Of a stretch of DNA of 5,159 nt, positions 1,601-4,935 are shown in pieces. The position numbers were made by a program, and so were the translations under genes. Position 1 is the first letter of the stretch. Each line of letters starts with the position of its first letter. Below the pieces are notes generated by a model, which did not search any database, had not been told where the DNA came from, and was given only the letters and a program-made list of their open reading frames with translations. The stretch is from Eubacteriales bacterium. GTDB lineage: Bacteria > Bacillota_A > Clostridia > Christensenellales > Aristaeellaceae. The stretch is taken from positions 1-5,159 of the forward strand of contig JARKQO010000517.1 in NCBI GenBank assembly GCA_029974855.1. Direction: 5' to 3'.

Positions 1601-2764
1601 TTGAAGCGAGTTTTCTTGATCGTGCTGGACAGCGTGGGCGTAGGGGCCCTGCCTGACGCGGAGAAATACGGGGACGCGGGGGCCAACACCATGGCCAGCA
1701 TTCTGGCCATGGCCAACCCCAAGCTGCCCCATATGGCCTCCATGGGCCTGGGGAAGATTCCCCAGGTGAGCTATCCCGTGCCCCAGGGGGCGGCGGGAGC
1801 CTATGGCCGGGCTGCGGAGGTCTCCCCGGGAAAGGATACCACCACCGGCCATTGGGAGTTGATGGGCGTAAGGCTCACCCAGCCTTTTCCCACCTATCCC
1901 CAGGGCTTTCCCCCGGAGATCATGGAGGCCTTTGAAAAGGCCATCGGCCGCAAGAGCCTGGGCAACTATCCCGCCAGCGGAACCGTCATTTTGGACGAGC
2001 TGGGGGAGGAGCACATGAAAACCGGGTATCCTATCGTGTACACCTCGGCGGACAGCGTGTTCCAGATCGCCTGCCATGAGGACGTGGTGCCCGTAGCCAC
2101 CCTGTATGAATGGTGCGAGATCGCCCGGGGGATTTTGCAAGGGGAGCACGCCCTGGGCCGGGTCATCGCCCGCCCCTTCGCCGGCCCCGGCAAGGGGGCC
2201 TTTGCCCGTACCCCCAGGCGGCGGGATTTTTCCCTGCCCCCCACCGGGGAAACCTTGCTGGACGTGATGCAGGCCCAGGGCCTGATGACCATGGGCATCG
2301 GCAAGATCGAGGATATCTTCTGCATGCGGGGGCTGGTGGAAAGCAACCACGCCGCCGGCAACACGGCCTGCATGGACGCCATGATGGACACTTTGGACCG
2401 GGACTTCACAGGGCTGGTGTTTGTGAACCTGGTGGATTTCGACTCGGTCTACGGGCACCGCAGGGACGCGGAGGGTTATGCCCGGGCCCTGGAGGCCTTT
2501 GACCTGCGCCTGGGAGACATGATGGGGCGTATGGGACCTGAGGATTTGGTGCTGATCACCGCAGACCACGGCTGCGACCCAGGCCACAGCGGCACCGACC
2601 ACACCCGGGAGTATATCCCGGTGCTGGCCTGGAACCCGGCCATGAAGGGCCTGGTGGACCTGGGTACCCGGGGGACCTTTGCGGACATCGCCGCTACCAT
2701 CGCCCAGCTCTTCGGCCTGCCCCAGCGCTTCGGGGCCCGGTCCTTTGCGGATCAGCTGCAGTAA
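1601..2764 (+). CDS. deoB: Phosphopentomutase DeoB
   Basis: The enzyme interconverts (deoxy)ribose-1-phosphate and (deoxy)ribose-5-phosphate in the cytoplasm, feeding nucleoside-derived sugars into the pentose phosphate and glycolytic pathways. It is 387 residues, close to the usual length of about 390. It belongs to the alkaline phosphatase superfamily with two Mn ions. Aligned from memory to the Bacillus cereus enzyme, all metal ligands and the phosphorylated threonine are present: D10 (in IVLDSVGVG), T80 (in KDTTTGHWE), D281 and H286 (in VDFDSVYGH), D322 and H323 (in TADHG), and H334 (in GTDHT). The mobile cap domain lies between about residues 95 and 275. Nothing is missing or truncated. 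The start is TTG, supported by an AAGGAGG site. It is followed after 81 bases by punA, whose product makes its substrate, and no terminator is visible between them, so the two probably form one operon. No repressor site could be recognised. Confidence 0.96.
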   Translation: MKRVFLIVLDSVGVGALPDAEKYGDAGANTMASILAMANPKLPHMASMGLGKIPQVSYPVPQGAAGAYGRAAEVSPGKDTTTGHWELMGVRLTQPFPTYPQGFPPEIMEAFEKAIGRKSLGNYPASGTVILDELGEEHMKTGYPIVYTSADSVFQIACHEDVVPVATLYEWCEIARGILQGEHALGRVIARPFAGPGKGAFARTPRRRDFSLPPTGETLLDVMQAQGLMTMGIGKIEDIFCMRGLVESNHAAGNTACMDAMMDTLDRDFTGLVFVNLVDFDSVYGHRRDAEGYARALEAFDLRLGDMMGRMGPEDLVLITADHGCDPGHSGTDHTREYIPVLAWNPAMKGLVDLGTRGTFADIAATIAQLFGLPQRFGARSFADQLQ

Positions 2765-2845: not shown

Positions 2846-3667
2846 ATGAGCGAAACCTATCTGGGCAGGATTGAAAAGGCCGCCGCCGCAGTGGAGCGGG
2901 CCTGCGGCCGGGCGGACATCGGCCTCATTTTGGGCAGCGGCCTGGGGGACTATGCCGAAACCCTCCAAGGGCGGCGCAGCATGGCCTATCAGGACATCCC
3001 CGGCTTCCCCCTCTCCACGGTGGAGGGCCACGCGGGGATGTGGCACACCGGGGAGCTCATGGGCAAGCGGGTCTGCATGATGCAAGGGCGGTTTCACGCC
3101 TATGAGGGATACGACCTGCTGGATGTGACCCTTCCCGTGCGGGTGATGCAGCTGCTGGGGGTGAAGATCCTCATCGTCACCAACGCCGCCGGGGGCGTGA
3201 ACACCGGGTTTTCCGCCGGGGATTTGATGCTGATTACGGATTTCATCAACCTGTCCGGCAAAAACCCCCTGACGGGCCCCAACATTCCGCAGTTGGGTCC
3301 CCGCTTTCCGGATATGACCTATGCCTACGACCGGGAGCTTCGGGCCCTGGCCCTGAAAACCGCCGGGGAGCTGGGCATCAACCTTCGGCAGGGGGTGTAC
3401 TGCTGGCTCAGCGGCCCCAACTACGAGAGCCCTGCGGAGATCCGCATGACCCGGATTTTGGGGGCCGACGCCGTGGGCATGTCCACCGTGCCGGAAACCT
3501 TGGTGGCCCGGCATGGGGGCATGCGGGTGCTTGGCGTCAGCTGCATCACCAACATGGCGGCGGGCATTCTGGACGAGCCCCTGAACCACCAGGAGGTCAT
3601 GGAAACCGGCGTTCGGGTGAAGGACACCTTCCGCGCTTTGCTGGACGGGGTCATCGCCAGCCTGTAA
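2846..3667 (+). CDS. punA: Purine-nucleoside phosphorylase, trimeric (PunA/PupG type)
   Basis: The enzyme uses phosphate to split purine ribo- and deoxyribonucleosides into free base and (deoxy)ribose-1-phosphate, the substrate of DeoB. It is 273 residues, normal for the homotrimeric family (human PNP, B. subtilis PupG) and unlike the shorter hexameric DeoD. The phosphate site is visible as S31 in LILGSGLG, H62 in VEGHAG, R82 and H84 in QGRFHAYEG, and the NAAGG loop (113-117). The base and sugar site is seen as E194 in GPNYESPAEIR, M212 in VGMSTVPE, T235-N236 in CITNMAAG, and H248 in LNHQEV. The Glu plus Asn pair is the signature of 6-oxopurine preference (inosine, guanosine and deoxy forms), not adenosine. 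The ribosome binding site is a weak G run, GGGGGA (2834-2839), 6 bases before ATG. The 81-base gap after deoB shows no clear promoter or terminator, which supports cotranscription. A strong inverted repeat follows 33 bases after the stop. Confidence 0.95.
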   Translation: MSETYLGRIEKAAAAVERACGRADIGLILGSGLGDYAETLQGRRSMAYQDIPGFPLSTVEGHAGMWHTGELMGKRVCMMQGRFHAYEGYDLLDVTLPVRVMQLLGVKILIVTNAAGGVNTGFSAGDLMLITDFINLSGKNPLTGPNIPQLGPRFPDMTYAYDRELRALALKTAGELGINLRQGVYCWLSGPNYESPAEIRMTRILGADAVGMSTVPETLVARHGGMRVLGVSCITNMAAGILDEPLNHQEVMETGVRVKDTFRALLDGVIASL

Positions 3668-3692
3668 TTTCCGGTATTTTCCAGAATCCTTG

Positions 3693-3724
3693 GCACAAAG
3701 AAAACTCCTTCCATGGGCATGCTA
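3693..3724 (+). promoter_or_regulatory. Possible forespore (sigma-F/sigma-G-like) promoter of dacF
   Basis: GGGCATGCTA (3715-3724) fits the sigma-F -10 pattern GGnnAnAnTR at five of six fixed positions, and its CATGCTA part fits the sigma-G pattern CATnnTA fully. The only upstream candidate is GCACA (3693-3697), four of five against GYATA, but its spacing is 1 to 2 bases too long for sigma-F and too long for sigma-G. A start about 7 bases downstream, near 3731, would fall inside the loop of the large hairpin. B. subtilis dacF is forespore-expressed, which makes the idea reasonable. The match alone is weak. Confidence 0.25.
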
Positions 3725-3756
3725 TCCAATGAGGATGCAGCCATGGAAGGAGTTTT
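3701..3756 (+). terminator. 56-base hairpin after punA; possible bidirectional terminator that also buries the dacF ribosome binding site
   Basis: Bases 3701-3716 (AAAACTCCTTCCATGG) are the exact reverse complement of 3741-3756 (CCATGGAAGGAGTTTT), a 16-base perfect stem. Inside it, after a small internal loop, 3721-3727 and 3733-3738 form a further six pairs with one bulged T and an AATGA loop. Each arm is AT at its outer end, so either strand shows a GC-containing stem followed by T: four T on the plus strand, and TTTTCTTTG on the minus strand. The position 33 bases after the punA stop suits a terminator, but the plus-strand T run is short. The right arm also contains AAGGAG (3747-3752), the only ribosome binding site for dacF, so the folded RNA would pair it. 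The structure is certain as sequence; termination and translational control are inferences. Confidence 0.75.
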
Positions 3757-3762
3757 GATACA

Positions 3763-4935
3763 ATGGGCAAGAATGGAGTACGCAGAGGCGCGGCCCTGGT
3801 GGCGGCCCTTTGGATTTTGGGAAGCGCCACCGGCGCGGCTTCGGCCCGGCCCCTGGAGGAAGGGACCCCGGTGGAGATCACCTCCCCCTCGGCCATTTTG
3901 GTGGAGGCGGACACAGGCACCGTGATTTTTGAAAAGGGCGCGGACATCAGGCGGCAGGTGGCCAGCGTCACCAAGCTGATGACCTTGCTGATCGTCCTGG
4001 AGGAGCTGCAGGCGGGGAGCATCGCTTTGGGGGATGAGATCACCGTCAGCAAAGCCGCCGCCGCCCAAATTGGCAGCCAGGCTTTGCTGGACGCCGGGGC
4101 GGTCTATCCCCTGGGGGATTTGCTGCGGGCCACCGTCATCTCCAGCGGCAACGACGCCGCCTGTGCCCTGGCGGAGCATATCGCGGGCACCGAGGAGGGC
4201 TTTGTGGAGCTGATGAACCGGCGGGCCCAGGAATTGGGCCTGGAAGATACCCTGTACCGCAATTGCACGGGCCTGCCTGCCGAGGGCTCCTATACCACCG
4301 CCCGGGACGTGGCCAGGCTTTCCTGCCAGGTGGCCCGCTATCCCGCCTATTTTGACTATGCCGCCGTCTGGATGGACACCCTGAAGCACCCCAGCGGGCG
4401 CGTCACCGACCTGACCAACACCAACCGCCTGGTGCGCTTTTACCCCGGCTGCGACGGGCTGAAAACCGGCAGCGCCGACGTATCCAAATACTGCCTCAGC
4501 GCCACCGCCCAAAAGGACGGTCTGCGGCTCATCGCCGTGGTGCTGGGCTCCGCCGCCAGCCAGCGGCGCTTTGACGAGGCCCGGGCCATGATGGACTACG
4601 GCTTTGCCACCTACCGCCGGGTGCAGATCCTCCGCAAGGGAGAGCTGCTGGGCAAGCAGGTGCCCGTGAAGCTGGGCAGCGCCGAGCAGGTGGAGGCGGC
4701 GGTGGGCACGGGGCTTACCATGCTGCTCAAGGCCGGGCAGGAAAAACTGCTGAGCCTGGAGGTGGAGCTGCCCCAGGAGATTCACGCCCCCGTCACCGCC
4801 GGGGACACCCTCGGCATGGTCCGGGTGTTGCTCTCCGGCAAGGTTATCGCCCGGCTTCCCGCCGTGGCCGCCTCGGACGTGCCCATGCCCGGGTTCCTGG
4901 AGGGATTCTTCCGGATGTTGCAGAACTGGCGGTAA
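3763..4935 (+). CDS. dacF: D-alanyl-D-alanine carboxypeptidase DacF (low-molecular-weight penicillin-binding protein)
   Basis: This exported serine enzyme removes the terminal D-Ala from peptidoglycan pentapeptides. It is 390 residues, normal for the PBP5-like class. An N-terminal signal peptide is seen: basic K3, R7, R8, a hydrophobic core at 9-20, and a likely signal peptidase cut after ASA (26-28). The three active-site motifs are intact: S68-V-T-K71 with the nucleophilic serine, S128-G-N130, and K234-T-G236. A beta-rich PBP5 C-terminal domain spans about 283-372. The last residues (GFLEGFFRMLQNWR) look like the amphipathic helix that anchors these enzymes to the outer face of the membrane. 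ATG 3763 is preceded by AAGGAG with a rather long 10-base gap. The DacF assignment over other DacA/DacB paralogues rests on location directly after deoB-punA, as in Bacillus, where dacF precedes spoIIA and is active in the forespore. The ribosome binding site lies inside a large hairpin, suggesting separate control from punA. Confidence 0.88.
   Translation: MGKNGVRRGAALVAALWILGSATGAASARPLEEGTPVEITSPSAILVEADTGTVIFEKGADIRRQVASVTKLMTLLIVLEELQAGSIALGDEITVSKAAAAQIGSQALLDAGAVYPLGDLLRATVISSGNDAACALAEHIAGTEEGFVELMNRRAQELGLEDTLYRNCTGLPAEGSYTTARDVARLSCQVARYPAYFDYAAVWMDTLKHPSGRVTDLTNTNRLVRFYPGCDGLKTGSADVSKYCLSATAQKDGLRLIAVVLGSAASQRRFDEARAMMDYGFATYRRVQILRKGELLGKQVPVKLGSAEQVEAAVGTGLTMLLKAGQEKLLSLEVELPQEIHAPVTAGDTLGMVRVLLSGKVIARLPAVAASDVPMPGFLEGFFRMLQNWR

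Follow-up and report, generated by a model that had tools for sequence, protein, structure and literature searches.

A hairpin over the dacF ribosome binding site as a probable one-way gate against read-through from deoB-punA

Introduction

What becomes of dacF in RNA that enters from the deoB-punA genes in front of it, when its Shine-Dalgarno (SD) sequence lies in one arm of a perfect hairpin, and how could the gene then be expressed at all? Spore genes often sit behind growth-active genes and, to our knowledge, the prevention of leak-through into them has been described only for single cases. A read-through hairpin at sigG was reportedly first proposed by Masuda in 1988 and by Sun in 1991. 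In a later account, the B. subtilis sigG (spoIIIG) hairpin, of 20 or more pairs, is proposed to block translation in spoIIG read-through RNA, and it cannot form in RNA from sigG's own sigmaF/sigmaG promoter (PMC5942855). Another report describes gene e (lysozyme) of phage T4, where longer early transcripts sequester the initiation region, with a reduction of about 100-fold, and where RNA from late promoters, which lie directly ahead of the ribosome site, lacks the 5' part and is well translated; the same report lists soc and 49 as other cases of inhibitory structures (PMC3014915).

Here we analyse the window, that is, the whole stretch of 5,159 bp, in which deoB, punA and dacF follow one another in a single strand direction, together with the corresponding start regions of relatives.

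Results

The dacF Shine-Dalgarno sequence lies in a perfect inverted repeat

The punA gene stops at 3667 and dacF begins with the ATG at 3763, the hairpin being located in between. The following features are considered.

1601..2764, + strand: deoB, phosphopentomutase, upstream operon (NCBIfam TIGR01696 and NF003766 over cut-off)
2846..3667, + strand: punA-type purine nucleoside phosphorylase, possible source of read-through RNA (NF006054 and TIGR01700 over cut-off)
3701..3716, + strand: left arm, anti-SD, in the candidate promoter spacer, AAAACTCCTTCCATGG, with ACTCCTT at 3704-3710
3741..3756, + strand: right arm with the SD AAGGAG (3747-3752) and TTTT as would-be U-tract, CCATGGAAGGAGTTTT
3763..4935, + strand: dacF, S11 D-alanyl-D-alanine carboxypeptidase (PF00768 and PF07943)

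The gene is called dacF on account of its sporulation context and its place in the gene order; the window's protein exceeded the cut-off of no NCBIfam model, and its N-terminus is signal-peptide-like by eye. On the minus strand, a frame at 326-1444 resembles, in its part up to about 1444 and also by eye, a THUMP/RlmL-type RNA methyltransferase.

A preliminary description of this DNA had placed the dacF SD within the right arm of an exact 16-base repeat and had read ACTCCTT in the left arm as an anti-SD. Both points are borne out. The arms are complementary at 16/16 positions and are separated by 24 nt, the SD sits 10 nt ahead of the ATG, and ACTCCTT is located at 3704-3710. This inverted repeat is not a product of chance. 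It is the sole perfect one found in the window at a length of at least 12 nt and a distance of up to 80, the one further pair from this search being a 75% overlapping palindrome, and rough arithmetic puts the chance that a stretch of 5,159 bp holds a perfect 16-mer repeat within 60 nt below 1e-4. In addition, the RNA of 3680-3790 folds at -44.7 kcal/mol as compared to -26.8 +/- 3.6 for shuffled sequences (z -4.92), none of 200 shuffles being as stable.

Pairing is maintained by compensatory change

With the DacF protein as query, 51 loci were found on genome contigs, of which 14 have an identity of at least 61%; sigG is found in 14/14 of the close relatives' genomes, 12 over the curated cut-off. 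A family search of 200 genomes identified DacF in 94 at E <= 1e-60. Start regions were gathered from 96 loci, 90 from the 94 family matches and six from the contig scan, to which the window was added. The fold z averages -2.3 over 96 of these 97 regions.

Two architectures were observed. In form A, the right arm holds the SD, with a T-run behind it in most cases. Form B has the SD in its loop and the start codon in the right arm, and here the T-run falls within the first codons (e.g. ATG GCC CGT TTT TTT). Some dacF rows have neither form. A loose pairing-probability rule, which lets in weak cases and puts some rows (L077, L079) in the wrong class, assigns 47 of 94 regions to A and 25 to B, with five that pair solely downstream of the predicted start and 17 that fall in none of these classes. 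Classes A, B and other were also set by a 12 kcal/mol threshold and placed on the dacF tree; this gave 26 changes and split the near-identical L061 and L062, so that the counts were not used as origins.

The window clade has 12 members. The ten with punA directly upstream, window included, were aligned, and L068 and L072, which have no punA directly upstream and weaker stems, were left out; the punA end lies about 91-123 nt upstream in all ten. Pairing is kept in 10/10 of these sequences. Six pairs, CTCCTT/AAGGAG, are invariant, which is what a need to retain the SD would predict. Overall, 87.5% of the cells are paired versus 44-48% in slid controls, and 13 cells changed on both sides versus 5.6 in shuffles (0/500 reaching 13). 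Counted by pairs, 5/16 changed on both sides, a number that 48/500 shuffles also reach. The preliminary description had suggested comparing the two arms in relatives. Carried out here, this comparison gave the result it anticipated, namely compensatory arm changes with AAGGAG kept in the ten clade sequences; in punA-dacF neighbours of other clades the hairpin is present and its letters differ.

The form B alignment (17 sequences, 16 distinct) points the same way, with 90.9% of the cells paired as compared to 31-43% in slid controls, even with L071 included, a truncated and misaligned row that weighs against the structure. Both sides changed in 5/11 pairs (matched by 3/500 shuffles) and in 14 cells (0/500), and 0/500 shuffles attain as high a covariation score. 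G-U pairs are found in several rows of both alignments, which favours a structure in the sense RNA over a DNA palindrome.

The SD of dacF is predicted to be unusually costly to open

The energy needed to open the region from SD to start codon was computed over positions -75 to +30. It could be scored for 94 of the 97 dacF regions and has a median of 13.8 kcal/mol, with 42 regions at 15 or above. Among 77 control starts from the same 14 contigs, a set cleared of the 14 dacF starts themselves, of an antisense frame that covers the same hairpin and of one gpr, the median is 5.5 and a single start is at 15 or above. For the window, the cost is 19.5 kcal/mol in read-through RNA and 2.5 kcal/mol in the predicted own RNA of dacF, whose fold is no better than that of shuffles. 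With an assumed own start, the medians go from 14.8 to 5.0 for form A and from 17.2 to 6.9 for form B; the lower costs follow from the assumed start and are not independent evidence.

The nearest relative provided a broader background, consisting of 80 regions without dacF (1.10 Mb of 3.1 Mb) on which 946 genes were called. The 598 starts that had an SD were scored; they come from a home-made start caller, and some are surely wrong. When the SD alone is considered, the cost is 15.8 for the relative's dacF and 15.9 for the window's, while none of the 598 other starts is at 15 or above and three are at 12 or above. With the SD-to-start measure, the 598 starts have a median of 6.9, 16 are at 15 or above and six match or exceed the 18.1 of the relative's dacF. 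By this measure dacF is less unusual than by the SD-only cost. One of the three starts at 12 or above belongs to an FAD-dependent oxidoreductase with a Rieske domain (L428:2881-4224, minus strand); upstream of it, CCCTCTCCC and the SD form a pairing that spans a CATACTG element.

A promoter-like element overlaps the left arm

The preliminary description had overlooked a promoter-like element in the hairpin, which would let dacF be expressed at all. We scored matches, 11 at most, to what we take to be the sigmaF/sigmaG consensus (GYATA, N14-16, GGNNANANTR), picked after viewing the sequences, at 20-45 nt before the start. In the window, its candidate parts are as follows.

3695..3699, + strand: candidate -35, ACAAA, weak (3/5 to GYATA), and weak across the window clade too
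3715..3724, + strand: candidate sigmaF/sigmaG-type -10, end of the left arm and loop, GGGCATGCTA
3731..3731, + strand: predicted start of dacF's own mRNA, approximate, placed from the -10, about 7 nt after it

Six positions of the -10 (G, G, A, T, G, T) are invariant in 10/10 clade sequences, giving G-x-G-x-A-T-G-x-T. The window itself scores 8/11, near its shuffles (about 7.3), and an upstream promoter-like site scores equally, so that the predicted start in the window rests on conservation and on the relatives.

In those relatives the element is clearer. A score of at least 9/11 is reached by 31/96 dacF regions, against a shuffle mean of 2.8 and maximum of 7, and by 18/598 of the nearest relative's other starts. 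Nine of the 27 strong-stem rows score at least 9, and in 9/9 of them the predicted start is located between the arms, and the spacer takes in 10-15 nt of the left arm. Strong-stem promoters of this kind include GTATA-agcagcctcccgcagc-GGGGAAACTA and GCATA-ttgcttcctcccgtc-GGATATTCTA. Eight further rows score 6 to 8 and are likewise compatible with a start between the arms; in 10/27, window included, the best match (7 or 8, which is near background, shuffles being at about 7.1) is not placed as the model needs. A near-identical -10, GGGCATGCTG, stands behind a clear GTATA at spoIIR of the nearest relative. Judged from these sequences, the relatives would have a promoter of sigmaF/sigmaG-like type in which the anti-SD arm serves as spacer and from which transcription is predicted to start between the arms.

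Related pairings at other sporulation genes of the lineage

At spoIVB, a form-A hairpin just before an ATG was seen by eye in 10/11 clade genomes searched, the exception being G001, the nearest.

L222:1401-1473, + strand: spoIVB start with form-A hairpin (by eye; likewise in nine other clade genomes)

The spoIVB hairpin of G096 is formed by AAAACGCCTCTTTCTGTG...CACAGAAAGAGGCGTTTT (fold z -7.3), and the spoIVB loop keeps a -10-like G-x-x-x-A-x-A-x-T. At sigG, 22/34 start codons have their pairing partner over 20 nt upstream, and in a number of rows the start codon pairs visibly with the -10 (GTGCCATACTGC with GCAGTATGGC). The sigG regions of G189 and G070 (L285, L286) are form-A-like, with the anti-SD between GCATG and CATACT; other sigG of the family show form B or neither. 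Form-A hairpins are located within 60 nt before the ATG of gpr in G002 (L175, AAAAATCCCTCCTG...CAGGAGGGATTTTTT) and in G011 (L189, CCCCTCCGC...GCGGAGGGG). Other gpr leaders (L194, L195, L197-L199) carry CCGCATTC-AAGGAGG-AATGCGG or similar, with the SD in a small loop near the start. At spoIVA of G010 (L307), a mother-cell gene, AAACGCCTTTCTCCGC...GCGGAGAAAAAGGAGGCGTTT flank a GCATATGCAT element following the same logic, and this element may be a sigmaE promoter.

Median opening costs are 12.4 for spoIIR, 12.3 for gpr, 10.8 for spoIVB and 14.2 for sigG, above the 77 controls (5.5), which are predicted starts of all kinds, and the 598 starts (6.9). The mother-cell genes spoIVA (10.8) and spoIID (10.3) also exceed the controls. 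A specificity for forespore genes is therefore not upheld, and the tendency belongs to sporulation genes of the lineage and not to the forespore alone. Judging by the sequence ahead of it, spoVAC looks operon-internal, and it has a lower value of 6.7 (p 0.012 versus the 77 controls).

A one-way gate and its alternatives

At the initiation region of dacF, the hairpin probably acts as a one-way gate, by which read-through RNA would be blocked and the gene's own predicted sporulation transcript left free. Polymerase arriving from deoB-punA would transcribe both arms. The hairpin and its T-run could terminate this read-through transcription, and any RNA passing the terminator would fold the SD into the 16-bp stem, leaving dacF untranslated. 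The left half of this DNA would also hold a sigmaF/sigmaG promoter, with the anti-SD arm as spacer and a -10 that runs from the inner end of this arm into the loop. RNA starting about 7 nt past this -10 would have no left arm and could form no hairpin, so that its SD would be exposed. In C. difficile, dacF is under sigmaG (PMC3789822).

The idea, put forward in the preliminary description, that a single element combines a translation lock with a terminator is well supported for the lock, whose pairing is conserved by compensation; the terminator role is plausible. Like an intrinsic terminator, the window hairpin is a stable, G+C-containing stem at the end of an operon, with a T-run that would serve as U-tract. 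It differs from one in that the window's T-run is short, the stem holds the SD of the next gene and the arms are 24 nt apart; a terminator pattern scan covering loops of 3-8 did not have it among its results. In 24/27 strong-stem rows, the 8 nt that follow the SD contain at least four T. The window has TTTTGATA at this place, with 5 T of 8 and a run of only TTTT, inside the stem. As for the neighbouring gene, punA lies within 150 nt and in the same direction in 22/96 scored rows. A stem covering the SD (score of at least 8) is present in 19/22 of these and in 24/74 of the others (Fisher p 7.5e-6, not corrected for kinship; a kinship-corrected independent-pairs test had four pairs only and no power). 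Among the rows with near punA, the misses L077 and L079 have a hairpin in the fold, beside which the script put the SD, and L132 has punA nearby without a hairpin. In rows without punA, upstream orientation by longest frame is unreliable in G+C-rich sequences and was not used.

The T-run and the association with a punA directly upstream would also suit a plain intrinsic terminator of deoB-punA, in which a short gap forced the overlap with the SD and the lock is a side effect, all the more so as a G-rich SD followed by T looks like the right arm of a terminator. We find this unlikely, because form B encloses the start codon instead and has punA within 150 nt in 0/17 rows, of which 13 carry at least 5 T in 8 and four do not, because the run in the window is just TTTT, and because similar enclosures occur at spoIVB and sigG of relatives. 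The equal-scoring promoter-like site upstream in the window, and an opening cost high enough for a switch, could on the other hand point to a cis-regulatory RNA or operator in dacF's own mRNA, transcribed from a promoter upstream of 3701 and opened by a ligand, a protein or temperature. This appears quite improbable. Rfam covariance models gave 0 matches with 3600-3850 at E up to 1, no motif shared upstream of the hairpin was seen by eye, the six sporulation-type -10 positions are invariant in the clade, and the nine strong-stem rows with clear promoters have their predicted start between the arms. Finally, arms so long, perfect and palindromic might suggest a mobile or dispersed palindromic element inserted between punA and dacF. 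This reading, to which we give hardly any credence, was rejected: a search of 11 related genomes gave matches with an E of 1e-3 or better at dacF only (four genomes), the remaining ones are short with E 0.05 or worse, and the arms change by compensation while the SD is kept.

Discussion

A read-through lock can be recognised by an SD or start codon paired with an upstream complement in the long transcript, and at dacF such a pairing is both predicted and conserved. The logic of the proposed gate is already known from sigG and T4 gene e. By the sigG account (PMC5942855), sigG, downstream of spoIIGA-sigE, resembles dacF in that read-through RNA would be blocked and RNA from the own promoter would lack the hairpin. 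As compared to B. subtilis sigG, dacF is another gene behind another operon, a T-run is attached to the hairpin, and the pairing is conserved by compensatory change across relatives. T4 gene e relies on early and late phage timing, whereas sporulation sigma factors would be involved here, and the part of the gene e account that is accessible mentions no terminator (PMC3014915). Among titles and abstract openings of the open-licence literature, we recognised no description of a dacF read-through lock. Within the literature searched, the new points are that dacF is the gene concerned, that relatives conserve the pairing by compensatory change, that a terminator-like tail is combined with it and, perhaps, that a promoter spacer is used as anti-SD arm.

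The recurrence of such pairings at dacF, spoIVB, sigG and some gpr and spoIVA copies raises the tentative possibility, which we hold with less than even confidence, that sporulation promoters of this lineage are built as gates, the spacer or the -10 complementing the gene's own SD or start codon. If this is true, one stretch of DNA would serve as promoter, terminator arm and translation lock, and a repeated design would silence spore genes during growth. A spacer that doubles as anti-SD arm is a searchable sequence rule and predicts sporulation promoters of uncultured Clostridia. It would also represent a compact design for an insulator, translation being confined to transcripts begun by the right sigma factor.
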